NCBI RefSeq assembly: GCF_041381155.1 | Contig: NC_091142.1 | Location: 38,117,604-38,181,603, forward strand | Source: Argopecten irradians | Lineage: Eukaryota > Mollusca > Bivalvia > Pectinida > Pectinidae | Direction of reading: 5' to 3' | Length of the DNA: 64,000 nucleotides | Part shown: piece by piece, positions 1 to 23,590 of the stretch | Position numbering within the stretch: the first letter of the stretch is position 1 | Layout of the letters: each line of letters starts with the position of its first letter | Translations under genes and position numbers: made by a program | The notes under the pieces: model-generated | Databases searched by the model: none | Seen by the model: only the letters and a program-made list of their open reading frames with translations | What the model was told of the DNA's origin: nothing

Positions 1-1165
1 TACCCTGGGCCTTCTGGTTATTGAGAAGAAGTCGTTTAAAGATTTTAGTATTTTTGACCACTGTGACCTTGAATGAAGATCAAGGTCATTGATTTGAATA
101 AACTTAATAGCCCTTCATCCCAGCAGTCAGGGGCCCAATATCAGGTGTCTAGGCCTCTTAGTTATTCACAAGAAGTTGTTTAAAGGTTTTAGCCTATTTG
201 ATCCCTGTGACCTGAAATGAAGGTCAAGGTCATTCATTTGAACAAACTTGGTAGTCCTTCATCCCAGCATGCTACAGGCCTAATATCAATACCCAGGGCA
301 TTCTGGTTCTTGAGAAGAAGTCGTTTGAAGATTTTAGCCTGTTTGACCCCTGTGACCTTGAATGAAGGTCAAGGTCATTCATTTGAACAAACTTGGTAGC
401 CCTTCATCCCTGCATGTGAGACGCCTAATATCAGGTCTCTAGGCCTCTTAGTTATCACAAGAAGTTGTTTAAAGGATTTTAGCCTATTTGACCCCTGTGA
501 CCTTGAATGAAGGTCAAGGTAATTGATTTGAACAAACTTGGTAGTGTTTCATCCCAGCATGATACAGACCTAATATCAATACCCTGGGCCTTCTGGTTCT
601 TGAGAAGAAGTTGTTTGAAGATTTTAGCCATTTTTGTCCCCTGCGACCTTGAATGAAGGTCAAGGTCATTCATTTGAACAGACTTGGTAGCCCTTTATCC
701 CAGGATGCTACATGCCCAATACAGTACCCTGGTCCTTCTGGTTATTGAAAAGAAGTCGTTTAAAGATTTTAAGATTTTTGACCCATGTGACCTTGAATGA
801 CCTTGAATGAAGATCAAGGTCATTGATTTGAACAAACTTAATTGCCCTTCATCCTAGCACGTGAGAGGCCCAATATCAGGTGTCTAGGCCCTAGGCCTCT
901 TAGTTATTCATAAGAAGTTGTTTAAAGGATTTTAGCCTATTTGATCCCTGTCGTTTGAAGATTTTAACCTTTTTTGACCCCTGTGACCTTGAATGAAGGT
1001 CAAGATCATTCATTTGAACAAACTTGGTAGCCCTTCATCCCAGAATGCTACAGGCCAAATATCAGTACTCTGGGCCTTTCGGTTATTGAGAAGAAGTTGT
1101 TTGAATGAAAAGTTTACACATGGTGAAGGGCGCACGGCGCATGATGACAATAGGTCATCCTAACC
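1..1165 (+). repeat. Interspersed repeat built of ~145-bp tandem modules with nuclear-receptor-like palindromes
   Basis: About seven diverged copies of a ~145-bp module follow one another; the anchor TGACCTTGA recurs near 64, 208, 353, 498, 644, 788 and 984. Most modules carry TGACCTTGA, seven bases, then TCAAGGTCA, which is an everted pair of extended AGGTCA half-sites. The last module runs into a tail at about 1100-1185 with GCATGATGACAATAGGTCAT and a small hairpin (TAACCCTACGGGTCA). The array starts before the window. Diverged copies at 1870-2215 and 29285-29480 show that it is a dispersed repeat. Confidence 0.85.
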
Positions 1166-1187
1166 CTACGGGTCAGATGAACTCAAA

Positions 1188-1334
1188 AGGGCAACAGTTC
1201 CGCTATATAAGAAGACACAACACGAATATATCAGTCTATCAAAACACGCACCACACCATATACACGAGAGGCCGTCCTTACATGACCTCAGCTGTTAATA
1301 GGTCGCTAATTAATCAAACAAACAAACAATAAGG
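1188..1334 (+). mobile_element. SINE 3' part
   Basis: The segment contains the motifs CTATATAAGAAGACACAACA and ATGACCTCAGCTGTTAATAG and ends in a (CAAA)n tail at 1314-1331. The middle matches the repeats at 15500-15755 and 57210-57470. The final ~45 bases resemble the 3' end of the LINE at 10863-10914, which suggests that LINE mobilises it. It is fused directly to the preceding modular repeat. Confidence 0.6.
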
Positions 1335-1869
1335 ATCTCTCCACAATGTCATAGGAAGTTTCTTTTGATCCTTACAGTTGTGGTAATAGCAATTTGGAAA
1401 ACCACATGGCTGATAAATAATTATCCTGGATTTTGACGATAGAAGTTCTTATCACTTTCTCAGAAAGTACTAATTACTAGTAAGAGGTTCAAATGTTGAA
1501 TATTGTTAACTTGTATACAAATTGTACCTTAATGGCAGTGCCCATGTAGACCCAAGTAATTACACTAATGGGCTGTAGTACAAAGTCAACATATGTTCAT
1601 AAATCAGCTCCTGAATAAAGTCGTAGTAATAAGAAGAGGCCAACAGTAGTCTTACGATCAAAACATCATTAAATTGGTAAATGCATATTTCTTCTAAAAC
1701 TAATGACATCAAGATGACACATTTGTTACCATGTCTGTGTTACTTGTATTGTATAGTGGAATGTATAGACAAAGAAAGATAGTTATCAAGTTCTGCCTAG
1801 ATCAAAGAAGCAGAAGTACTTAAATAACCTTGAAAGTGTGCTTCATCCATACAAATCTAATGTTTGAAT
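1335..1869. other. Unassigned AT-rich spacer
   Basis: I see no open reading frame of note, no RNA gene and no clear repeat here. Confidence 0.5.
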
Positions 1870-2215
1870 AATTTAGGCTTTTATAACTTACAGAGAAATC
1901 GTTTGAAGATTTTCACCTATTTGACCCTGTGACCTTGAATTAAAGCCAAGGTCATTTATTTAAGCAATTCATGTCGGCATACTAAATACCCAGTATCAGG
2001 TCTCTGTCTCTCTTAAGTTATTGAAAAGAAGCTGTAGAATAAATCTATTTTATCCTTGTGACCTTAAATGAAGGTGAAGGTAATTAATTCCAACTTATTT
2101 GGTAGCCCCTCATCCCAGCATGCTAAAGGCCAATATTATTTCTGTGGCTATCAGTTATTGAGGCAAAGTTGCTTTAATGATAAGTTTATGCACAGTGCAC
2201 AATAACAGACGAAGC
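1870..2215 (+). repeat. Diverged copy of the 145-bp modular repeat
   Basis: Two modules are recognisable by GACCTTGAATTAAAG near 1930 and GACCTTAAATGAAGG near 2070, by the phrases CATCCCAGCATGCTAAAGG and GTTATTGA, and by a tail with GCATGATGAC near 2214. It is much more degraded than 1-1165 and so is probably an older insertion. Confidence 0.7.
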
Positions 2216-2254
2216 ATGATGACTGAAAATATAAAGACAACTTCAAAATCTGTC

Positions 2255-3084
2255 CTGGCATTACACAATTCTTTATTGTTTCATACACATAAAATTTATC
2301 TTATTTTAATTTTTCAAATATACATACATAAACATACACATAAAATTTATCTTACTTTAATTTTGCAAATGTGTAAATGTTTAACTTGTGTGTATAATGT
2401 AGACCAAAATACTGAAAATTTAAATATATTTGAAGTCCTTTTGCATAATGCGTAATTGTTGAATAACTCCATGTAAGATCTCTACCTGATGACAATAGAG
2501 TTTCGTATCTTAGGAGGTGATTAACTGCTCCTGATGAACATTTATAGGACACAGCTGTTATAATGACTTGACACAAGACATTTGGTTGACACTTCAACAG
2601 ACAAACAAATGAGCTGATGTTCTGATGTTTGAATATGTTATATTGATATCATACTTTGACAATGGCACATCAGATATTTTGAGATGTCAAGTTAATGTTG
2701 AAATCAACACCAATGTCAAGCAGTTTAGATTTGATTGACAAGCACCAAGATGTCATATTGGTATTATTACAGTCTGAATTCCTTAAGCTGACATTGAAAT
2801 GACTTTGTAGCTAGCACTAAAACCAAACACTTCAGACATTCATAACTGACAGTGTAGTGTCTTGCAGCTGTCAATGTTTGAAACTGCCATTCTGTTCCAA
2901 AGTAATTGAGTAAATATCTTGCATTTCAACAATTGGCAATTCTGTCCGGATCCAAGCACATCAAGACATTTGTAACTGACAGCGCAGCAATGCCTTGCTG
3001 GACAACCTTCGCCCATGTCATTCTGTGTTCCTAACAGATTCAGTTGATGACTGTTTCTAAGTGACATTTGACACTATGTTGATG
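2255..3084 (-). other. MED21: MED21 3' untranslated region with AATAAA signal
   Basis: Downstream of the MED21 stop on the minus strand, the first clear AATAAA lies at 2277-2272 (TTTATT on the plus strand). That gives a 3' UTR of about 800 nt. No better signal is seen between it and the stop. The extent is inferred from the signal alone. Confidence 0.5.
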
Positions 3085-6000
3085 TCATGTGTTGGACTCC
3101 ATAGCCTGACACTGTAATTGACACTGGGCAATGTCTCTAAGTGCACTTTGTATTTGCTCCAAAAGTCCTTCACCTTTACTAACAATGTCTTCTAAATTTT
3201 TGGCTGTGTCTTGATTTTCTGTTTCTAACTTCTTTAGAGTTGCTACCTGAAAGTCCACAAAAAAATACAATTTTATTTTCAGTAAAGAGGTTATGTATTT
3301 CTTAGTAATACTCCCATTCAAACTGTCTATTTGTATAAGGTATACAGCAAGTTTCAAAACATACATGTAGACCTAACTACTGAAAAGGCAATTCAGGTAT
3401 AACAATTGATGTCAACTTGTATCATATAAAGTTAAAAAGAAATACCAGAAAGTTTTTTTCTTTGTGTGTGAAAATTCTATGGTCTGTTTTATTTTGTGAC
3501 CACAGGTCTTTGGTACACTGAATTCTTATAAAGGTCAATTGTTCTGATAAAACATATTTGTCAAGTGATTCTAGCTGTTCCAACAAGTTTTCTGATGCCC
3601 GAAACTTATATTTATAAACAATTCTGAACATTTCTGTCATGTTCCTGTATTTCCTGTTAATATTTTAATCATGCTCTTGTATTTGATGGAACTGATTTAC
3701 AATTATCCATGTTTGTAATAAATTATTTTTACCACACATGTATATTTGATGGGATTATTTTCCATGTCCCCATGTTTGTAATACATATTTTTACCACGCC
3801 GTATATTTGATGGAATTATTTTCCATGTCCCCATGTTTGTAATACATATTTTTACCACGCCCGTATATTTGATGGAATTATTTTCCATGTCCCCATGTTT
3901 GTAATACATATTTTTACCACGCCCGTATATTTGATGGAATTATTTTCCATGTCCCCATGTTTGTAATACATATTTTTACCACGCCCGTATATTTGATGGA
4001 ATTATTTTCCATGTCCCCATGTTTGTAATACATATTTTTATGACCCCTGTATATTTGATGGAATTATTTTCCATGTCCCCATGTTTGTAATACATATTTT
4101 TACCACGCCCGTATATTTGATGGAATTATTTTCCATGGCCCCATGTTTGTAATACATATTTTTATGACCCCTGTATATTTGATGGAATTATTTTTCATGT
4201 CCCCATGTTTGTAATAAATTATTTTTACCACACCCGTATATTTGATGGGATTATTTTCCATGTCCCCATGTTTGTAATACATATTTTTACCACGCCGTAT
4301 ATTTGATGGAATTATTTTCCATGTCCCCATGTTTGTAATACATATTTCTACCACGCCCGTATATTTGATGGAATTATTTTCCATGTCCCCATGTTTGTAA
4401 TACATATTTTTACCACGCCCGTATATTTGATGGAATTATTTTCAATGGCCCCATGTTTGTAATACATATTTTTATGACCCCTGTATATTTGATGGAATTA
4501 TTTTCCATGTCCCCATGTTTGTTATACATATTTTTACCACGCCCGTATATTTGATGGAATTATTTTCAATGGCCCCATATTTGTAATACATATTTCTATG
4601 ACCCCTGTATAATTGATGGGATTATTATCCATGTCCCCATGTTTGTAATACATATTTTTATGACGCCCGTATATTTGATGGAATTATTTTCCATGTCCCC
4701 ATGTTTGTAATACATATTTTTACCACACCCGCATATTTGATGGAATTATTTTCCATGTCCCCATGTTTGTAATACATATTTTTACCACACCCGCATATTT
4801 GATGGAATTATTTTCCATATCCCCATGTTTGTAATACATATTTTTACCACACCCGTATATTTGATGGAATTATTTTCCATGTCCCCATGTTTGTAATACA
4901 TATTTTTACCACGCCCGTATATTTGATGGAATTATTTTCCATGTCCCCATGAAAGCTGGGTCCACGTCCCGAGACTGGGTGCACTGCTCTCATGCGGATG
5001 CACACCACTTTTGGGGGTGTGATGTGCGTCCGCTTGATATCAGTGTAGCTGAAGGCTTTCACAGTAGCTCCAATTTGAGCCAACCTGTTTGCCGTGGGTT
5101 GCATCTCGTATCCGGGGGAAGAAGGTCCTGGTGGTTGAATAGGTTTTGCTCTTTTTTCTTCCTTTTTTTACTGCTACACACTACTTTGGCTTCAGACTCC
5201 GGTTAGACGAGAGGTAATATGGGCCCTGTATTATCAATCGGCTGGTCATGCCGAGCCCTTGGTTCGTAGATCTCCAAGAAGGCGGTGGCTTAGGGTCAAT
5301 CGTGAGTTTAATTTGGATTGTCTTGATTCTGATCGATCTTGCAGGTGTACAATCTTGCGAGCGTGCTGTCGCAAGCTTGATTTGAATTATGTTTGTTCGA
5401 AATATTCTTCCGAGTATACTATCTGTGTAACCCTGACACTTTGACATTGGATATCCATGTCATCATGAGTGTCCCCCTGTTGGGCTCCGAGGTGGGTGGG
5501 GGCACAGCTAGCGAATTGTAATTAACTCTAAAAGATGGCTTCCAAAAACAAACAAAATGAACTACAACCAAAATCTCCCCAAAAGGAATCAACCACAAAT
5601 CAACAAACAAAAAGCGGTACAACAAACACATTCCCACAGTTTCTGGTCATGTCCTCTACACAGAGTGGCAAGACCACTGCAGGTTTATCACCCTTAATAT
5701 TGCGAAAGGGCATCAAAGGCATTGCTGGAGATGTCAAATCTGTGAAGCCTTTGGGATCGGGTGATCTCCTAATAGAGGTTTTCCGCAAGCAACAAGCGGA
5801 GAACCTCCTTGGAACCAACAGTTTTGCCGGCCTCAGTGTGTGTGTAAAACCACACTCATCATTAAATTGCAGCAAGGGGGTAATCAGGTGCCCAGCCTTG
5901 CGCAATGACAATGAGGCTGACATACTGTCATACTTCCAAGAGGAGAACATTCCGGTCTCTCATGTTAAACGCATCATGACGAGAAAAAGTGGGAGCTTGG

Positions 6001-12000: not shown

Positions 12001-15000
12001 GCAAACTGCTTTTTATGATCTAGCTAATAAAATACCAAATTAATAGGACAAATAAACAAATTTCATTATCTTATGAAGTTATGATAGTAATACCTTCTTG
12101 TGCATCATTGGGTGATTTTCCAAGTTGTTTCTCAAAGCCAGCAAAAGTACTTGGTGGTGAACACTGCTGGAGTATTCCGACACTGTTACAGAACTGGTCA
12201 GCAAGCTTAAAATCATTAAAAACAATAATTGTTCAATTATAAATGAGCTTTTTCATAATCATTTATAAATACCAAGTACATGTATATACATGATTATGAA
12301 CCTTTTTTGATATTCCATGAAATACATTTTGCGGGGGATAATGACTCCAAAACTGTTCAACTAAGCTCAGCAATGTATGTAGGATTTTTTAAGGGGAGTC
12401 CAAAACACTAATTTCAATTTTTGATTAGCAACAACACAAAGAAATATATACATGTATAGAGGGTAACATTCTCAACATTTTGGCGAGTCCCACAAGAAAA
12501 TCATTCCAGGTTTCATCTAGACAAGTCCCATAAATCACTGTTAGCTCCTTGAAACTATTTTTTTATACTTTTTGACACACAAACTAATCTTATTTCAATG
12601 TTTAGTTTAGAGGTTTAGTAACAAATTCATGCTCCATTATGATGCTCTACATTACGCTCCAATACAAGATCTAACAATGCCCCGTTTCGGGGTCACCTAA
12701 GTCAGTGTTATGAATAATGTTTGCCTACTTGCTCATTTTCAGCTGACTTTTTAAAATTCCATCATTGCAATTATTTGGTATCGATCATCACTATTCCCTG
12801 GTAACAAACCTGTAGCGAGTCAATCAAAAATGGCGTTGTTGTGTTGTATGCAGATAAGCATGCACCTGATGAAGATTATGTGGTGAAGGTGCGTTGGAGC
12901 ATGCAGATCCGGTGCAAAATTGACCATGTGATTAGTCAGCTCATAAACAACTAGATAAGTGGCATATTTCAAATGGAAAACTTGGATTTTGTATCTTTTT
13001 CATCAGAACATGAGGATAAATGGATGCGAGTACCAAAAAATGCAATGATGGATTTTTAAAAACTCACCGGAATTTATCTTAGATGACAAAAATATTTTGT
13101 TTTGCCGATTCTCAAGATTCGTCATTCAATTTTTGATGAGTACGCTGATTTTGTGAGCAGGTATGTCACTTCTGTTTACCTTTGTCCACTATACGTGTAG
13201 TCAGATCTAGCTTTTTAGCCAGATTCAGTGGTGCTACCGGACCTGATCGTGGCTACAACAGTAGTAGTTTGCTATCAGTCAGAATTTTGAGTCTGCATTA
13301 TAGCAATCATGGCTAGATTTAGCGAATTACAACAGTAGCTACTCTACTGAGTACATCTGATCAGGGCTCGAATTTCAGGATGTTTTACTTGCTTTTTGCA
13401 AGTAGGTATACCAGAGTAGCAAGTGAAAAAAATATGCACTTGCTTATTTTAGCAAGTGGTTTTTATCAGGGACAACTGTAAAAATGGCATAATGATTGTG
13501 AAAAATTGTTGTAATGGAAAATATGGGGGCCCAGTTCTTACAATAATGTTGTTGATATACGCTATGTACTTATACACCTCACATCATCATGCAAAAATAA
13601 AGGATTTTATATATAACATAACTGTAATTTGAATACGGATATTAATTATAAGTAAAAAGTATATTTTAGCAAGTAAAAATTTATGGCACTTGCTATTTTT
13701 AGCAAGTGGCAAAAAATGTAAAATTCAAGCCCTGTCTGATAGGGACCAATTTCACATTAGCAGGGTCGTTTTGACTAGTGTCGATATGACAGTATTTGAG
13801 TAACCAGGTAACTAGTCTGCTAAAACTGACCATAATCGCAGACTCAGAATTCTGACTGATCGTGTTAACAAGCGATCAGTCAGAATTTTGAGCCACTAGA
13901 CACACCCATTCATATGCATACAGACACATCACAGCCACAAAGGATACATTTAAGTATTCCTTCTTCCCATACACCATCACACGCTGGGATCTCCTCCCTG
14001 TGGCAACAGTACAAAACAAAACACTACACTGGAGGGCTTCAAGGCAAACATAAACAATGTAGCCCTTGAAGCCCCCTCTCACAAATAAACACCTCATTTT
14101 TATCAAGTTTTCAACCTATCTACTTTTATCTATTCCAGCACCAGGAAAAGATGCACTGTATATAACCCCCTCCCCCACACCACCTCACCTATAATCGTCA
14201 CTTTTGACGGATGGTGACAAACTAAAGAAGAAGACGAACTAGCAAGCAAGTTGGGCCGAGCGTCCGTATGACAATATGGCCGTTTTGTCTAAGCCCAATA
14301 TGACAATAACAGGATGAAATAAGGCTTTACTTTTTTTAATGTTGGATGTTGCCTGTTTGAAGTTTCAAGTCGCTGAAAATCGGGTCGATAGTCTACTAAC
14401 TAGGTTAATTTTGACTGGGCTGAAATCAGGAAGGGTCACACTTAATAACGACAACAAACGACAAGAAACGACAACAAACGACAACACGTTAAATATAAGG
14501 AAAAGTTAGTGACAACACAAGATATGTTATTCAGTACATTAAAATGAATATTTCTACCAAGTTTTATGAAGATTGGTGCAAAAATGAAGGAATTAGAGCG
14601 ATTTTAATATTCTGAAATCGGCCGCTGGTCAACAATAGATCGAGTGACAAGAGGTTTGCCGTGACGGTATACCGACAACACGTTGTAACATCGAAAATGT
14701 TTTAAAAACCTAAGGACAACAGAAGATGTGTTATTTGTCATACTATAATGCATCTATGTACAAATTTTCATTAAGATTGGAATAAAAATGAAGACTTTAT
14801 ACCTGTTTTAATGTTACGAGATCGGCGAATGGTCAGGTCTACTACCGACAACAGATTGACGACTCACACACGCCTGTACACGCGTGTGTACGAGTGCATA
14901 TAGGGTCTCGATATTGTTTTTCTAAGCCATTATTGTGTAAACATCATTATAGTCGGTGTAGAACTCTAGGCCATACTCAATACACGAGTATGTTTTCAGA

Positions 15001-18000
15001 CCCTACGTGACGCTACCCAAATTGGAACACTTTTTGAAGATAATTGTAAAATCAAAGTACTGAAAGTACTGAAGGAGGCGTAGCTCAGATTCTAGACAGG
15101 GTAATGATATATTGAAATATTAAAGATATATCATAAAAGTAATAGTACATGTTCAGGTTATTTTCAATCAATATGGATTGAAATATCAGATTGAAAATTC
15201 TGTACTTTCGCAGAATGACTGTTGTTTATTATAGAATAATGTGGATCAAGTATTTGCAAATTGATTAAATCATGGAAATGTTTAATCTTATAAAGTTGTT
15301 AAAAACAAATGCTCCAAAGATCTTGAAAATATTGTATGCGAAATAAATATGAACAATGACTAATGATATAGAATAAAAATGATGCAAGACTAATATATAT
15401 TCCTTTTGAAAGTTTGTGTTGGTTTTTACATGTTTTGAAATTTCAATCATGGTTTGAACTTTCTACCATCTGGGCAAAGTGTATGAAAGTGGTAGTTATG
15501 CTCCTGCTGAGCTCAGCATATACTGGCAGTAGAACGACTGGCTGACCCATTGTCAGTTTAATGTGACAAGGTGTGTTGGGATGCTTGGGTGTCTTCAGCG
15601 GCATGTTCCAGTGATATCATAATACATGTAGCACAATGAAAGGGCAAGAGTTCCACTATACAAGAAGACCCAACAAATACAGCGCAGTCTGTGCATGCTA
15701 CACACAACATACATTGGAGGCTGTCCATGCCATTAATGAACCCAACAATCAAATATTGCCAAATCCAGTGTCAATCTGTCAATGTTAACAACAGCGTAAG
15801 GTGAAGTTGAAATCAATGTCCAATTTCCTCTCAAGGGATATTCCATTAAAACATCTAACCCAACTCAGGATATTATAAACATTGATACCCCTGATTTCAA
15901 TTTCAGAAGTTAATACTGGATTGGAATATTACATTTTGTTGCAATGAAAGTACTAGTTAAAGGAATTGTGCAGTCAAAAATTATAATTTCAGTTTATGCT
16001 GGAAATGGCTTTATTAGCACGTGTAGAAACCTCTCCGTGCCGCGCGCGACCGGAATAACCTGTAAACCGTCGATATCGAGGTCCAAACTTCTGACCGCCC
16101 GATTATGCATATTTTCTAGCTCTAAACCGTGTGACATCATAATAGTCCGTGGCTTATAGCTGTACTATAACTGATGTGCTATCACTTACATCGACGGTCA
16201 CAGGAAAAGCCGATCAACGATTTTTTTTATGATTACTTTATACAATAACTTTGGCTCGAATGTAAATAACTAAAAGAGTGAAATTCGATGTTTCAAATAC
16301 TCTAATTTATGCTCTAATAACAGGTATCTTCGTGTAATTATGACAGAAAATCCACACAGAAATAAAAGTTTCGATTTTTTTTGTCGAGGAGTTCAGCAAC
16401 GAATAAGCTTTAATTAGATAATATTTTCCTGTAGTCTGTATCTTTGATACATTGTGAATTACAAAGTTTGTGACTGTAAAATGAAATTTTATGAAACAAT
16501 TTCAGAAATCCTTTATTAAAGTATTGACGTACATACCAGAAACATATATACATATATGTATACGGTGTATATGTTTCTGTACATACACACCGATGATTGA
16601 TCATTACAAACATTGTGTTGTGTGTTGCTAACCGAATAAATTGAGATACATTTATTACAATACCGTAAAACGTTTCAACATATGGTAGAAAGAATTTATT
16701 TTTGATATTATAAAAGATCTAAATATTGAGATATTAGCAAAACAAACTATTTTTTTCAGACTGTGTGGTCGCTTTCAATTTTTAATCGATATACGAGTAG
16801 ATATCCCTATACAGATATATAATTAGCCATGTCTTTGGTTTGATGGTTATGTAATACCTGGGCCAGGATGTTGTTTACCTGTACCAAACGCCATTCATCG
16901 AACTCACCTGTAAGTACCTGGCCGCGGGCAATTTGCTATTCGGTGGACTATGTCGGGTATTTGCTATTGTCTTACTGTCAATCAGGTTAGGACATCCGTT
17001 AATTGGATTGTGACTTGAATTATGGAAACCCCGTACATCTATGCTCTAGGTTTTTTTATTGTCACCTCCATTTTTAAAATGAAGATGTAAAAGCAAATGG
17101 AAATAAAATATCCCTGATCATACATGTACCTAGGAATATATATTACATATATATATGCCGTACACAGGTAAAACAATAATGGAAGTTGACTTATTCAGAA
17201 ACAAAAATGGTTCTAAGAACTATTTCAACTAAAGATTTAACCTTAAAAATTATTCCAGTCTAGTACTGTAATTACGGAATCGTGGAATATAGCAATCACC
17301 CGTAATTTCTAAGGTTTTAGGAAAAATTCTAAGCATGTATTTTCATAGCCGCAATATTGTAGCTCAAAAGACTTTTTGACAGAAAATGGTGTCGTCTTTA
17401 GAAAGGTATAGTAGGCCGGGTACGTATATTCGTTCTAGTATTTTCACCGTTTCGAATCTACATGTATAGTCATACAAGAAGGGTTACAGCATTACCACAC
17501 TAAATATACTTATTTAAATATCACCAAGTATAATTTTGAAAAGGTACAACATTTCATATCTATTTATGATGCCTGTATACAAGTAATTTCATTTTTCATT
17601 TGAACACTATATGTGGTTACTTTTTGGATAATACGATAAATGTTCATATATCATACTATTAAATCTCGGTATGATATACAAAAGGATCGACAATGGATAT
17701 ACTATTTTAAGGATTTAGTATAATTTTGAAATTATGAATTTAAATCTACACTTATACTGTAATTTAGAAACACATATCAGAAATATCATTGATGTATTTC
17801 TTCTTTTTAGTAAATGTTATGGATAAAGTTTCAAAGGCAACAATATAGATATACATATTATTTTCGGTATAAGTTTGGTATTGTCACTCCAATATCACAT
17901 AACTAATAAACCGTCCACATTTTACTTTTACTCAAAAACTGTGACGTATTTGCATCGTTATGGTAGAAGTTTGAAATAAAAACAATAATAAGTAATAAGA

Positions 18001-21000
18001 TAGCGTTGCATTATACTGGTTTTTTTTTTATTACAGAGAAATTTATATAATATGCTATCTAAATCTCAGTCCAGACTGATCCGAACATCATTTTGATATC
18101 GCTATCAAATTGGACAGAATATCTAATCTAAAGTTAGATATATGCTTGTTTGAATGTTTGAAATGGTGTAAATGGATTGTTTTGAAACTGAAAATATCTA
18201 CATCATTATCTCATTATCTCTGAACCGTAGTCGACACTACCCGTAAATCACGACCAAAACCAACCGATAGCGCTAAAAGCTAGGCGATTCGTTGGGTGGG
18301 ACTTAATTTTTCATTCATCAAAAGCAATATCCTGACGTATTATCAAAAAAATATTTTGGCTGCACAAATCCTTTAATATCTTAACGGAATATCCCTTTGT
18401 ATAGAATATGCAACATCTGCAAATAAACAAGATATTGTTAAAAACAAGAAAAAAATATATTTCACCTTACATAAAAAAAAAATTTTTTGTCTTACATAAA
18501 AAAAAACATTTTTCGTCCCACATAAAAAAAATATTTTTCACTATACATAAAAAATATTTCTTGTCTTACACAAACTGTTTTACGTGAGCACGTAAACGTT
18601 TTACGTGCTCACATAATAAGTTTTACGTGAGCACGTAAAAGAAAAAATATTTTTCACCCTACATAAAATCTTTTTTTTTGGTCCTACATTAAAAAAAAAA
18701 AATTTTCGTGTCACTTCTGTGCCGCCGTACTTTTATGTTTATTTTTGAGAAATGTTTTGTTAATAATGTTGCTTCAGAATGAATCAAATTACACAGTGAT
18801 GCTATCATTTCCAAATATTATTCGACATGAGGTCTTCAAAAATTAATTAAAACGTTTACATGTCAGAAAATGGGCGATTTTCTATGTCGGAAATACTCAA
18901 AATATTGCCGATTTTTTATAACTTAAAGGGACAATTCACTCAGGCTAATTCTTTTACATAACCAAAAAGCAAAATATGGCATAAATGTATTGTTTTACAT
19001 TTCTTATGAAACATATAACATAAAATATTGACAAATTCCACGTCATTGTTTAATATTTTAATTAATATCGTTGAAATATCAATTCGTTGATCAATACGAT
19101 TAACAGGCACAATATGGACGTTGTACCCATACCCGAGCCAAAGTCACGCACGTTAAACAAATAAACTACATAACCCCTGAGAAGGTGATAAAATGATTTT
19201 TAGGCAAGACAATTCGCCTAATAAGGTAAACACACTACTGTCAGAGCGATTTGAGCAGTTCTAGACAAAAGTTGCATTACTCTACGAGCAAGGGACAGGG
19301 TTCGGCATACAAGAAGTTCGACCACAATGTGTAATGGCGGACAGCGAGCGAGTTTGAACATCTACACACATGTCACAACCATGGGCTTTTCAGGCATATC
19401 ACAGTAAAAACGACTGATCTAATTTCCATTAGAACTGGGTTTTTTTTTCGATATTATGTACAAATTTTAATGTTTTCTTGACTGAATTGTCCCTTTAAAA
19501 ACAATATATGCGCAAATTACCTGAAATATCGTAAACAAACTAATCAATATTTGTATCATGGCTCCATCAATATATTTGCTCTGTAAAACACTGTTATTTC
19601 TGCTTTGTCCGTGCCGATTCACCGTCCGTTCACCGCTTCTTTCACTTTCTATCGTTCCGAGTAGTGTGTTTATTGTAGGATGTTAGTACATTATTTGCCG
19701 TTGAAAAATGCACGAAAAATAATCTGATCAACTGTAAATGAAACATATTAAAGGATTATTGAAGTTTTGACAACAAGTTTTTAACAAAATTATCAACACT
19801 CACGGCTGTAAACTCGCCAGCCATTCCAGGACCAACACGGCGTCATGATCAGGTAATGGCGATAGTACGGGACCTCGCCGTTTTTCATGTACGTCAGATT
19901 TTCGTTCGGTCAAATTGAATAAAAAAATCGTCAAAATCATTGTCAGATTATATCCTTTTAGGCCTGTGATATTTAAATATCATGACATCGTACTTATAAT
20001 TACAAATATATACCGTAATATCAACAGCAGAAGCCATGATGGCGTCCCCGGTAACATGAGTGAAGCAGTGAACACAAGTGCGTCGGCAGAGTTTGTAACA
20101 GTTGTCTCCCTTTGTACGGACTGTTCTTTTTGACATGTTCGTTAGTTTGGGGAATTCTAGTTCATTTTTATAAAATATTAGTGGATAGGCCTAGCAATAT
20201 TCGATTAAATACCCGTAATTGAAAAGGCATTTATTTTCAGTTGAATTATTTTACTTACAAACAAGTTCATATGCAATTACTGTTAGATTCGCGGTTTGCA
20301 AGTTAGTCTGCCGTAGGTTAGTAAGGCCAACAGATCTAGATGCAGCGCACTCACTAGTATAAGTACCGATATTGAGACACACTTTCGGTTAGAATAATCA
20401 ATAACTAATTGTAACATTGAAAATAAGTCTAAAGTAATAAAGTAGGAAATTATAATGTGACTGAAACATGTAATCAACGGAGAACCTCTGACTGCTGTAT
20501 AATACACAACGTACGTTGCAATACACAGTGTAAAGTTATCTCCCGTAGTTCCGGAAACTGTCGATAGGATTACCAAGGTATAGTGTTCCGGTGATAATTG
20601 AAAACCAGAGTGATTACATGATGGCAGGCTGCGCCTCCATAAAAAATCTTACATGTGGTTGAATCCAGATTTTTTTCTTAACATTCCACAAATAGATGCT
20701 TTTATTATTAATTTCATGATTTGTTTACTTGTCAGCCCTGTGTTTCAGCAGATTTGAGTACCCAAACGGAACACCTCCTAAATAAAGTTTGATTAATAAA
20801 TGTCCAGGCATGATAAAAAAATGTTTGAATTGATTTAAATAAAGTTCAAACGTATTTTAGTTTATTCAGGGCACATGTCTTTCAAATATATTCCATTCAG
20901 CATTTATTTTTCTCATTTTAAAATATATGGTGTTTTTAGGGTTGTCGCACGACGTCGTTTCCCGGAGTTTTTCAAAATTTCATTATTTTCATTTTTAAAT

Positions 21001-23590
21001 ACAAATAATAAGCAACTGGAAAGAAAATGACATATCAAAATTGTCACTGTTATTAGTCAGCACCTTAATTTTTGTTCAAGACTTTTATTGTTAGTTTAGA
21101 TTGTAAACTGAAAATTCTGTATCACATATTTTAAAATTGTTTCATTTTGGGTAGCGTTCCAAATTGGGTAGCGTCACGTTAGTTTTTTTGTGTGTGTGTG
21201 TATTTTTAGCTGCGTAAATATTTTTATATTAATTCACTTTTTTATTTACGCGGTAACTTTGACTTTATTTAATATGTTTTATTTGAAAGATTAAGTTTTA
21301 ATATCTTGAATCCCGTCTTGCGTGCACACAAGATTTCGCTTGCGTATCGTAAGTTTTAATTTCGGGAAGCTTACAAATATTACGTTTATTTAACATTTTT
21401 TATTACTGAACTTACATATTTTATTTATTGAATGATTTTTACTGACACATACATACGTGTAATTCATTTGAAAAGTATTAGAAGGTAAACAAATTTTAAC
21501 TGTTAAAACATCTTGAATCCCGTCCTGCGGGCACACAAGATATTTCGCAAACATATCGTAAAATGTCCAACTGATAATTTCGCAAACGTATCGTTTAAAG
21601 TCTAACTGTTAAAGAGAAACACAATCCTTAAATATCTTGAACTCCGTCCTGCGGGCACACAAGATTTCGCTAAGACATTTTTTTCTGTTTAGACGGACCG
21701 TGCGATTCTGTTCATTTCCACGCACCCGTTTTCGTGTATCCGGTTTTTTCGCGATGGCTGCAGTTTTTGGAATAGTTAGCATTCCATTAGTGGAAGATAT
21801 ACCTTCCTTTTTCTGCTTCACAAGTTTCATAAACTTGTGCACTTTCCGTTGTCTTTCTACAACGGGCAGTTCTCTCCAAAATACTGAACTTATTTTTAAA
21901 AGTTGCGCATGCGGAGCTAATTCGTACTCTTCTATTCCGTGACGCGATCTGCGAACGTGGTTGTACTGCGTGTTTTGTATGTCCTCTAATCGTTTTATCA
22001 AATCTGGAACTTTCGAAATTTTCCAGTCACCAACAAGCTTTATGATGTGATTCATTGATTCGCTGTTGTTGTTTTTCCAGTCTTTGGGTATATGGGGGCA
22101 TCGTACTCGGGCCTCAACCACCCTGCGCCGGATAGTTGGTAAAGTTTTTTCAGACCAATATGTACCCATACCTTCACCATACATATCGTCGATTTTGCTT
22201 GATACTGAATCAGATTCTTTGATAGTATCCGAATTGATCAGTCCATCCTCGCCAGAGATAGACGACATTATCGGTGCTTTTTCTTTGTCGTTCATTCATG
22301 TTCTCGAAAATATACGCAAATATTTTATACAAAAATGTACAATAAAAAAAAAAACATATAATAATGTATTCCTTAAGATAACATATGGGAAGTATATATA
22401 CACACCATATGTTTACATAACAATAAATACAATCGCGAACTGTAATCACACTGATAATATACACATGTGTGTGCATACACGTACGAATACTGTATGCAAG
22501 CCGTTGGTCTACTGAGAATTTCAATGACCATTACTCATTCAAATCTTCATCAATAGTCATTACAATTGACATGAATTACTTTCTTTAGATATAGGTTACA
22601 TATATTATTATTTGCGGTAACATTACTGCGTAATTTCGTAAAATAGTTTGTGTTGTCGGTCGGATCTAGATCTGTACATGTAAGCTTGGCTTACACACAT
22701 GTATACACTCTGCGTCTCTTCATATTTGAAATCGTCATTACTCCGGTATTTTTTCTCCAATCTTAATGAAATTTTGTACAGAGATGCATTTAGCTGCGAT
22801 GACGTAGCTCTGAACGACGGACGGAAGAACCGGAGTGGAGGCAGGGTATGATTATTCGTTCTAAGATGCATTATGGTATGAAAAACAACATATCTTATGT
22901 TGTCGTTAGGTTTTTGTAATTTTTTTAATGCTATGATGTGTTGTCGGTAATACTGAACATGTACACACTCGCGATATAAACCTGACCAGTCGCCGATCTC
23001 GTAACATTAAAACAGGTATAAAGTCTTCATTTTTATTCCAAACTTAATGAAATTTTGTACATAGATGCATTATCGTATGACAAATAACATACCTTCTGTT
23101 GTCGTTAGGTTTTTAAAACATTTTCGATGTAACAACGTGTTGTCGGTATACCGTCACGGCAAACCTCTTGTCACTCGATCTATCGTTGACCAGCGGCCGA
23201 TTTCAGAAAATTAAAATCGCTCAAATTCCTTCATTTTTGCACCAATCTTCATAAAACTTGGTAGACATATTCATTTTAATGTACTGAATAACATATCTTA
23301 TGTTGTCACTAACTTTTCCTTGTATTCAACGTGTTGTCGTTTGTTGTCGTTTCTTGTCGTTTGTTGTCGTTTTTAAGTGTGACCGATCAGGAATGATGAA
23401 ATTAACTGGGCACATTGGAACCTTTTTCGCGGAGATTCGATCGATGCATGATGATGAGACTAATTCTGTGTATGAGCATAAACTCTCAATATCGGGATGA
23501 TGAAACAACAGAACAGAAACGTGTTGAATAGCATCGACAATAACAAACCTGATTAACAGCATCCTGCAACTGTGTTAGTCTGTCGGCCAT
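3085..23590 (-). CDS. MED21: Mediator of RNA polymerase II transcription subunit 21 (four coding exons)
   Basis: This small Mediator middle-module subunit pairs with MED7 and helps link activators to RNA polymerase II in the nucleus. Coding exons are 23590-23549 (starts [14 protein letters not shown]), 12205-12094 ([19 protein letters not shown] follows the human protein closely), 11900-11800 ([16 protein letters not shown]) and 3246-3085 ([20 protein letters not shown]). All junctions have GT/AG and the phases agree. The sum is 417 nt, or 138 residues, against 144 in human. The C-terminal part is a predicted helix/coiled coil. Intron 1 is 11.3 kb and holds a MULE-like transposon. Intron 3 is 8.6 kb and holds a minisatellite and a LINE. 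RPLP2 lies head-to-head upstream. Identity is from remembered human MED21 and is firm across all exons. Confidence 0.95.
3247..3699 (-). other. MED21 intron 3, unique part next to exon 4
   Basis: The branch/acceptor region (minus strand GTGGACTTTCAG, exon begins at 3246) is followed by AT-rich sequence without further features up to the minisatellite. Confidence 0.6.
3700..4951 (+). repeat. 62-bp minisatellite, left part (about 20 copies)
   Basis: The unit contains CGCCCGTATATTTGATGGAA and CCATGTCCCCATGTTTGTAA and repeats every 62 bases. Variants alternate, for example CCACGCCCG or TGACCCCTG, and GTAATACATA or GTAATAAATTA. The rare GTAATAAATTA variant recurs at 3715 and 4211, exactly 8 units apart, so higher-order blocks have been copied. 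The array sits in MED21 intron 3 and continues after the LINE at 10915. Confidence 0.97.
5535..6788 (+). CDS. LINE ORF1, gag-like nucleic-acid-binding protein
   Basis: This 417-residue frame begins [15 protein letters not shown] and shows three zinc knuckles around residues 195-250: [29 protein letters not shown] and [15 protein letters not shown]. In this LINE group ORF1 coats the RNA and chaperones it to the target. The C-terminal part is basic and proline-rich. The last part of the protein seems to continue in another frame from about 6785 to a TAG at 6974-6976 (segment [15 protein letters not shown]), so a one-base slip lies near 6785. ORF2 begins right after. Confidence 0.85.
   Translation: MASKNKQNELQPKSPQKESTTNQQTKSGTTNTFPQFLVMSSTQSGKTTAGLSPLILRKGIKGIAGDVKSVKPLGSGDLLIEVFRKQQAENLLGTNSFAGLSVCVKPHSSLNCSKGVIRCPALRNDNEADILSYFQEENIPVSHVKRIMTRKSGSLVPTHTFILTFATPTLPQSVTVGYQRYNVTVYIPNPLRCRNCQRYGHHENNCRRKMVCQHCGREGHDEKDECDIVNRHCVNCRGDHAASARTCPAWTREREILRVKYTRGVSFPEARRIVECSDLNVATYAQITRAKTPVDSVTVKHASVQALVDKPNWDNDVPDMADAKACKVIMGDPNRFKSGPSKPQQKPPGAKTPIPPASPGLTQHQIQTPNIRKKVTAARHRRATSSPSIDVKKLPEIKQSVQQIHHRRSNARQKPPR
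6931..7740 (+). pseudogene. LINE ORF2 part 1: AP-type endonuclease
   Basis: The frame is open from 6931 with no ATG before 7087. It contains [50 protein letters not shown] and GSDHFPI. These are the successive signature blocks of the apurinic-type endonuclease that nicks target DNA in most LINEs. The missing start suggests translation coupled to ORF1 (re-initiation or frameshift). The frame breaks near 7725 at a T-run. The protein then continues in frame 2 ([20 protein letters not shown]) and, from about 7830, in frame 3. Confidence 0.85.
7737..8535 (+). pseudogene. LINE ORF2 part 2: start of the reverse transcriptase
   Basis: The frame contains [43 protein letters not shown] and [18 protein letters not shown], the N-terminal RT blocks of I/Jockey-like LINEs. 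It begins within a basic linker ([19 protein letters not shown] onwards). At about 8535 the reading moves to another frame, which continues [20 protein letters not shown]. Confidence 0.85.
8536..10641 (+). pseudogene. LINE ORF2 part 3: reverse transcriptase palm and RNase H
   Basis: This 701-residue open frame has RT blocks [41 protein letters not shown] and the catalytic FVDDFLICY. The thumb region with [14 protein letters not shown] follows. An RNase H domain comes next: [33 protein letters not shown] and [19 protein letters not shown], with the usual D, E, D, D residues. The end ([20 protein letters not shown] and [17 protein letters not shown]) is a CCHC-like tail typical of I/Nimb-type ORF2. 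It is unbroken over its whole length. Confidence 0.92.
10915..11765 (+). repeat. 62-bp minisatellite, right part (about 14 copies)
   Basis: It continues the array of 3700-4951 beyond the LINE. The GTAATAAATTA variant occurs at 11180. With the 5977-base insertion (LINE plus duplicated target) removed, this lies 992 bases (16 units) after the copy at 4211, keeping the 8-unit rhythm. The array ends 35 bases before MED21 exon 3. Confidence 0.97.
12206..13361. other. MED21 intron 1, unassigned part
   Basis: There is no gene and no clear repeat in most of it. Near 13280 a stretch reading ATCAGTCAGAATTTTGAGTC recurs inverted and direct near 13830-13900. That hints at an old inverted-end element around the hAT-like insertion at 13362-13734. 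Confidence 0.45.
13362..13734. mobile_element. Non-autonomous hAT-like element
   Basis: The 373-bp segment starts CAGGGCTCGAATTT and ends AAATTCAAGCCCTG, inverted ends of the hAT type. It has internal inverted motifs ACTTGCTATTTTTAGCAAGT. The flanks share TCTGAT (13356-13361 and 13735-13740), shorter than the usual 8-bp hAT duplication. The assignment rests mainly on the ends. Confidence 0.65.
13890..14240 (+). mobile_element. LINE 3' fragment (end of a reverse transcriptase ORF plus 3' UTR)
   Basis: On the plus strand the segment reads [20 protein letters not shown], matching the KxSFFPRTIxxWNxLP block that ends many CR1/L2-like ORF2 proteins. A 3' tail follows with ATAATCGTCACTTTTGACGG and GAAGAAGACGAACT. 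It is a 5'-truncated, degraded copy. Confidence 0.6.
14433..14838 (+). repeat. Left terminal inverted repeat of the MULE-like element
   Basis: It consists of a short ACGACAACAA-rich tip and about two related subunits, each with CCGACAACACG or similar, a phrase like GAAGATGTGTTATTTGTCAT, and TTTTCATTAAGATTGGAATA. It pairs over its full length with 22980-23385. Confidence 0.9.
15500..15755 (+). mobile_element. SINE-like repeat nested in the MULE-like element
   Basis: The motifs GTTGGGATGCTTGGGTGTCT, CAGTGATATCATAATACATG, GGGCAAGAGTTCCACTATAC and AGAAGACCCAACAAATAC match the SINE copies at 57210-57470 and, in part, 1188-1334. The 3' end is decayed. Confidence 0.55.
15961..18372. mobile_element. 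2.4-kb element with 13-bp inverted ends and TTAA target duplication
   Basis: The left end TTAA-AGGAATTGTGCAG and right end CTGCACAAATCCT-TTAA are inverted repeats with one mismatch, each flanked by TTAA (15957-15960, 18373-18376). TTAA targets are typical of piggyBac-type transposons. There is no transposase frame inside, only AT-rich sequence and short frames, so it is non-autonomous. It is nested in the MULE-like element. Confidence 0.7.
18465..18712. repeat. A/T-rich tandem repeat with TTTTACGTGAGCACGTAAAA palindromes
   Basis: Irregular copies of CACATAAAAAAAATATTTTT alternate with three near-palindromic stretches of TTTTACGTGAGCACGTAAAA type at about 18570-18640. It lies inside the MULE-like element, between two TTAA elements. 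Confidence 0.7.
18927..19494. mobile_element. 568-bp TTAA MITE, copy 1
   Basis: It begins AGGGACAATTCACTCAGGC and ends GACTGAATTGTCCCT, flanked by TTAA on both sides (18923-18926, 19495-19498). A second copy lies at 27694-28260 in the opposite orientation and matches along its length, including GACTTTGGCTCGGGTATGGG and CTTGTATGCCGAACCCTGTC. It has no coding capacity. The TTAA target suggests movement by a piggyBac-like transposase. Confidence 0.9.
19499..21302. other. Unassigned interior of the MULE-like element
   Basis: AT-rich sequence with short frames only. No domain is recognised. Confidence 0.5.
21303..21675. repeat. Three direct copies of a ~37-bp motif at the end of the transposase frame
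   Basis: The motif TCTTGAATCCCGTCCTGCGG followed by GCACACAAGAT occurs near 21303, 21511 and 21636. The third copy lies within the last ~20 codons of the minus-strand frame 21609-22295, so the end of that frame is repeat-derived. Confidence 0.75.
21609..22295 (-). pseudogene. MULE-type transposase fragment (C-terminal region)
   Basis: The frame is 228 codons. Residues 45-150 ([55 protein letters not shown]) follow the segment after the catalytic core in many animal MULE transposases, as I remember the family (a TNNxCESxNHxLK block, then WK and a QxxDVxRA-like stretch). The catalytic DDE core and any DNA-binding domain are absent, so it cannot cut DNA. The N-terminal 45 residues are acidic and serine-rich. 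The C-terminal 70 are lysine/arginine-rich and could bind nucleic acid. The last ~20 codons come from a local direct repeat. It could be a relic, or a small domesticated or regulatory protein of the element. Confidence 0.65.
22620..22979 (-). repeat. Extra subterminal unit inside the right inverted repeat
   Basis: Read on the minus strand, this segment has a further copy of the subterminal unit (CCGACAACAC, AACGACAACATAAGATATGT, AATGCATCT, TTTCATTAAGATTGGAGAA). The right end therefore has about three units against two on the left. Confidence 0.75.
22980..23385 (-). repeat. Right terminal inverted repeat of the MULE-like element
   Basis: It is the inverted counterpart of 14433-14838 and the same length (406). 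It ends GTTGTCGTTT repeats then AAGTGTGACC, followed by the 8-bp duplication. Confidence 0.9.

Follow-up and report, generated by a model that had tools for sequence, protein, structure and literature searches.

Target-site duplications of 8–11 bp and long terminal inverted repeats (TIRs) are standard for MULE transposons (PMC6446971), and termini starting in G or C have been noted for them (PMC13359780). According to the same arthropod source, full-length MULEs range from 1.4 to 10.0 kb, mostly 2.5–5.0 kb, with TIRs of up to 1,193 bp (PMC13359780). Two mollusc groups are listed, MULE-Cg (group 15, with TIRs of 48 and 296 bp) and MULE-Mollusca (group 19) (PMC6446971, Table 1), and a survey of bivalves provides 39 curated full-length MULE consensus elements (PMC10294476). 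Rehavkus elements, which form the outgroup in Dupeyron et al. 2019, are marked by a minisatellite that precedes the 3' TIR and by a PHD finger, with TIRs that measure 26–400 bp; they are listed from arthropods and annelids with duplications of 9 bp (PMC6446971), and the passages of the Rehavkus literature at hand name no mollusc family. Phantom elements of aphids, too, are described as having a minisatellite behind the transposase ORF (PMC6446971).

Here we describe an element in the first intron of MED21 in a 64,000-nucleotide stretch of Argopecten irradians DNA, the whole of which we call the window. We consider it, with a probability of roughly 0.93, to be a non-autonomous MULE (in the broad sense that includes Rehavkus) from a multicopy family, with an internal deletion and a nested insertion that it received later. 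Its inverted arms (14434-14841 and 22977-23384) are 408 nt long and 96% complementary, and exact 8-bp copies of ATCAGGAA flank it on the left (14425-14432) and on the right (23386-23393); arms, duplication and the first base on each side together place the element at 14433-23385. The left TIR (14433-14841, plus strand) starts with GGGTCACACTTAATAACGACA and includes a tandem of the 10-bp unit AACGACAACA as well as a module, weakly repeated, with 182-nt spacing; the right TIR (22977-23385, minus strand), 96% similar to the left one, starts in reverse complement with CGGTCACACTT. MED21 runs on the minus strand: the coding part of exon 1 (23549-23590) ends at 23549 next to a GT donor, and an AG acceptor precedes the start of exon 2 at 12205. 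Intron 1 thus measures ∼11.3 kb and contains the element, whose end lies 163 nt from exon 1. An Rfam scan of 14400-23400 returned no family at threshold. The first-pass annotation had drawn the element's borders exactly to the base, as the arms and the ATCAGGAA duplication show, and it was right about the two inverted ends (given as 406 bp, here 408 nt at 96%) and, on the exon and splice borders, about the location in MED21 intron 1, 163 bases from exon 1. Its description of an 8.95-kb MULE-like transposon holds for the MULE-like character and the clean ends and fails for the size, of which 5.6 kb is a nested insertion; the long ends, which it had called unusual, are not, and neither is the superfamily, given that TIRs of hundreds of bases and MULEs of animals, molluscs and bivalves had already been published (PMC6446971, PMC10294476). 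As an intronic passenger, the element would now be cargo that is removed with the intron by splicing.

The trace of the C-terminal side of a MULE transposase that had been noted in the element is indeed there: a 228-aa ORF (21609-22295, minus strand) is recognised through its relatives L073 (35% over 194 aa) and L074 (48% over 161 aa), in both cases on the C-terminal side, and keeps the region of the presumed catalytic E, with both D regions gone. Pfam searches with eight ORFs of the element, this one included, gave chance-level matches only (E 0.0045 to 0.14), and the 228-aa ORF has no match among solved structures. L073 (C8:16004800-16010800) has an intact 1100-aa ORF at 529-3828 with a MULE domain that scores 29.0 bits in the genome search (cut-off 27.6) and 23.6 bits, under the cut-off, in hmmscan; no long inverted ends were seen within the 6 kb read. 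Its N-terminal side also has sub-threshold PHD and OTU matches. L075, for which a frame of 356 aa had been indicated as open, has a single ORF of at least 120 aa, which is 238 aa long and has no Pfam match. Among viral contigs, a search with the 1100-aa L073 protein gave two pattern matches and no relative.

What the ancestor of the remnant may have looked like can be seen in L116 (C13:2600793-2605273), a 4.4-kb copy that has the same ends and is flanked by the duplication AGTAGTCA; it is the complete relative with a DDE transposase between such ends that the first-pass annotation had suggested looking for, though its reading frame is broken. Its transposase pieces match L073 residues 473-1095 in three stretches, spread over two frames (summed E 3e-113), with at least two frame changes, and carry the motifs GNDRTF, IGSDEEK, CTRH and NNNCEPMNH, which by analogy with MULE transposases we take to mark D, D and E. 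The open piece, which includes both the second D and the E, reaches 21.3 bits with Transposase_mut (cut-off 21), that is, 0.3 bit above, and 26.0 bits with MULE (cut-off 27.6), that is, 1.6 bits below, and this sub-threshold MULE score on L116's best piece counts against our main reading. Pfam gave no match on the two other pieces, including the one with the first D.

Compared with L116, the window copy lacks 1,358 bp (L116 positions 2096-3453), mostly transposase coding, at the junction 22297|22298. This stretch is matched by 34 distinct fetched copies, of which 32 run through the junction without a break; the exceptions are L116 itself, which holds coding sequence there, and L017, in which a different deletion removes the site. 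L117 (C11:5713601-5718112; 4.4 kb), one of the 32, carries a separate insertion 18 bases on (1799-3490, 1.7 kb) that is mostly a 155-bp tandem array with an ACGG run; it was considered as a second complete relative and rejected, the extra 1.7 kb having no L073 match N-terminal to residue 860. A genome search with the missing 1.3-kb coding segment gave nine matches including itself. The other eight are all partial, among them C8:30135348, situated 1.3 kb from a listed end and matching at 92% over bases 1043-1311 of the query, and C2:47173143, which lies in L074, and this search turned up no frame-intact transposase with the ends of the window's family.

Behind the transposase remnant are the remains of a minisatellite (21299-21678), with 49-nt units at 21299, 21506 and 21630 and a 35-nt tandem pair at 21542-21611. 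L116 has an array directly behind the C-terminal end of its transposase (951-1465, period 181, with subunits of 73 and 108 bp), together with seven 55-nt units at 777-1479 of the same kind as the three in the window, and in L073 a 195-bp unit is repeated 5.9 times directly behind the ORF (3860-5011). These arrays bear on a narrower form of our main reading, with the same working, in which the family sits in the Rehavkus branch, sister or outgroup of the canonical MULEs. The published Rehavkus marks (PMC6446971) have counterparts in the placement of the L116 and L073 minisatellites and possibly in a match of L073 over the whole PHD profile, at 22.5 bits against a cut-off of 24. Set against this are the duplications, 8 bp in 27 of 31 pairs versus the 9 bp listed for Rehavkus, the lack of any PHD match in the three pieces of L116 (whose match starts at L073 residue 473), the lack of a tandem array in L074, and the minisatellite that Phantom of aphids likewise has behind its transposase (PMC6446971). 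On balance, we regard a place in the Rehavkus branch as possible but doubtful; if true, it would extend Rehavkus beyond arthropods and annelids. Still less probable, in our estimate, is the fuller proposition that this is a Rehavkus-like lineage, in a host group without listed Rehavkus and with 8-bp rather than 9-bp duplications, from which a single deletion derivative of GGG/CGG polarity spread until recently and may be moved by a relative's transposase. The last point is suggested by the broken state of the sole un-deleted copy read and by the partial nature of the other matches to the missing segment.

The body of the element consists of a left part (14433-15051), collinear with L010, L011, L014, L017, L026, L050 and L114, among others, and a right part (20641-23385), which in relatives such as L011, L014 and L026 follows directly after 15051 (in L050 to within ∼1 base). 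Because relatives are collinear across 15051/20641, the DNA between is foreign and the native element comprises 14433-15051 plus 20641-23385, or ∼3.36 kb. Judged by these empty sites, where the relatives have an A/T run, 15052-20640 is a foreign insertion. From 15050 on, the window DNA belongs to a repeat for which a first look gave 3,074 candidates; the 40 that were scored are the window and 39 places at 91–99%, 33 of the 39 beginning between 15043 and 15054; for its other end (19900-20640), the best 40 of 273 candidates were scored. The left and right junction patterns (≤3 mismatches) each occur once in the genome, in the window, and for this reason the nested insertion would have come later than the arrival in MED21. 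That a single 8.95-kb MULE moved as one unit, with the whole interior its own, would agree with the one 8-bp duplication that flanks all 8.95 kb, but with relatives that run on from 15051 into 20641, an interior that is present elsewhere with other flanks and two junctions that occur once each, we give this very little credence.

The nested high-copy repeat (15050-20645, minus strand, borders uncertain by a few A bases) is ∼5.0 kb without its MITE, which is long for a HINE. No genes or coding sequence were recognised in 15052-20640. The MITE (18923-19498, 0.58 kb) has 20-nt inverted ends and TTAA on both sides; at that place of the repeat it is lacking in L067, L069, L070, L071 and L072 and present in L066. 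Read by eye, the repeat itself has subterminal inverted repeats GGAGGCGYAGC, namely GGAGGCGTAGC (15074-15084) and GCTGCGCCTCC (20628-20638), an AGTACT..AGTACT stem at 15056-15070 near one end and A/T-run borders. This plan of subterminal inverted repeats, a stem near one end and T-run borders resembles the one described for Helentrons and HINEs (PMC4067079), and it is this likeness, shared down to the lack of recognised coding capacity, that leads us to call the repeat Helentron-like, a tentative label; its 3' subterminal repeat lies ∼24 nt from the end, versus 38–60 bp in the mite families described (PMC4067079). Around the insertion, the native element has a subfamily-specific internal segment of ∼0.58 kb (15008-15051 plus 20641-21178, within 15005-21179), whose inverted arms of 27 nt lie at 15005-15031 and 21153-21179. 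Among copies that reach across it, 23 have the segment in whole or in part and 8, including L116, lack it; copies without it have short other sequence in its place (7 of 8 read).

The ends themselves define a family across the genome. A search with the left end gave 240 candidates, of which the best 40 scored show 94–100% identity, and a 20-base end pattern (≤2 mismatches) has 166 occurrences, 80 of them forward and 86 reverse, compared with 7 for the reversed-pattern control. Duplications were tabulated for the window and for 30 inward pairs found among 100 ends listed of the 166, all with 0-mismatch ends 0.26 to 6.7 kb apart. An exact 8-bp duplication is present in 27/31 pairs, an exact 9-bp duplication in 1/31 and none in 3/31 (C5:7752659, C4:18373547 and C13:18836155); the first-pass annotation had proposed such a tabulation, with 8–11 bp expected for a MULE. 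When the left and right flanks of different copies are cross-paired, 0/930 match. The numbers of ends relative to the control and of exact 8-bp duplications relative to the cross-pairs show that the arrangement is not due to chance, and 8–9-bp duplications around paired ends, the absence of which from every other locus had been named as fatal to the proposed family, are found besides the window at other tabulated pairs.

One end starts with GGG and the other with CGG in 30/31 pairs; the remaining pair, GGG/AGG, is one of the three without a duplication. In 23/24 GGG/CGG pairs with a known remnant strand, the 5' half of the transposase gene is on the same side as the CGG end, and we read this polarity as inherited from the founder copy. 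The sole pair of the 24 with the opposite polarity relative to the remnant strand, C9:17669553-17671353, may hold an inverted interior. Outside the table, L015 has TCAAAATC on both sides, the left one out of register by one base. L031 (C2:52500953-52503804) lies within another copy of the TTAA MITE known from 18923-19498 of the window, and its flanks overlap by window positions 19280-19287, CTCTACGA, the complement of the L031 duplication TCGTAGAG; here, the 8-bp duplication can be read by comparison with an unfilled paralogue.

Three further arrangements of ends were observed. Five very short copies (0.26–0.88 kb), at C6:7553072-7553326 (L088), C13:979659, C3:55992432, C3:11058022 and C11:22109076, consist of little beyond end sequence, and each has an exact 8-bp duplication; if they moved at this size, little beyond the ends would be needed in cis. 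At C9:36356628-36371488, five end fragments of the family lie on one strand at a spacing of ∼3.6–3.8 kb; in L113 (C9:36356500-36360500), 253 bp are repeated at 100% with an offset of 3748, so that an end seems to have been caught in a tandem array. Finally, two end starts on the same strand lie 77 bp apart at C3:67748316 and C3:67748393.

Duplications of this length are also made by other superfamilies: hAT, P and Merlin elements give 8-bp or 8–9-bp duplications, and the element could be assigned to one of these on that feature. None of these families is among the Pfam matches listed, and Transposase_mut scores above cut-off on L116; such an assignment is accordingly most improbable. A reading of the two ends as parts of separate elements, with flanks that match by chance, is refuted by the 31 pairs arranged in this way, of which 28 have an exact duplication, and by the 0/930 matches among cross-pairs.

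Bodies were aligned for 26 copies, four of the 30 given (L003, L012, L023 and L117) having been left out as too short. Over up to ∼1.18 kb, the median pairwise identity is 0.959, and the copy nearest to the window is L011 at 0.975. L030 and L031, which stand at sites whose duplications differ, have bodies with an identity of 0.999, which suggests that part of the family has probably moved recently.

Taken together, these data are consistent with the following course of events. The ancestor would have been a longer element of ∼4.4 kb, as in L116, with a D/D/E Mutator-type transposase between inverted ends of ∼400 bp. One copy presumably lost 1,358 bp of the transposase gene, and this derivative would then have multiplied in trans through the transposase of undeleted siblings or relatives, probably, to judge from the anatomy, by cut-and-paste movement, with a staggered cut giving rise to the 8-bp duplication at each new site. 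One ∼3.36-kb copy inserted into MED21 intron 1, as its ends and duplication show, and a ∼5.0-kb Helentron-like repeat with its TTAA MITE landed inside, probably after this arrival, bringing the total to 8.95 kb. One genome thereby displays most of the chain, from an un-deleted copy with a broken transposase through the founding deletion (32/34) and the 8-bp duplications to the nested insertion. The last more than doubled the element's apparent size, a warning that the DNA between clean ends can be mostly foreign.

How does the family compare with known systems? With MULEs at large, it shares the 8-bp duplications and 408-nt TIRs with G or C as first bases (GGG/CGG in 30/31 pairs); a D/D/E Mutator-type transposase is represented in the family by the frame-broken L116, and the window copy has the E region alone. 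MULE-Cg and MULE-Mollusca are mollusc MULEs like the family described here, placed beside it by description rather than by sequence, and the Table 1 passages give no duplication length for either (PMC6446971). The 39 bivalve consensus elements, likewise compared by description, belong to the same superfamily but, unlike the deletion derivative in the window, are autonomous and full-length (PMC10294476). Phantom/Muta (group 20) is similar in comprising animal MULEs with duplications of 8–10 bp where given, TIRs of 18–613 bp and, in aphids, a minisatellite after the ORF; its listed hosts are flatworms, crustaceans, arthropods, tunicates and an ichnovirus, and the likeness is again one of description (PMC6446971). 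Plant MULEs with multiple long TIRs share repeated end sequence with the pair at C3:67748316/67748393 but differ in that the repeats of the present family are mostly internal to each end (PMC3310237). Rehavkus, also likened by description, differs in its 9-bp rather than 8-bp duplication, in its arthropod and annelid hosts and in the PHD finger, of which L116 has no match; it resembles the family in the minisatellite behind the transposase (L116 and L073), the weak PHD match of L073 and TIRs of up to 400 bp, and Rehavkus-1_TC has repeats within its inverted termini, as the window's family does (PMC10218199). The family is thus a well-bounded and largely ordinary representative of an already known kind of element, useful for annotation and of bearing on the reach of Rehavkus-type elements.
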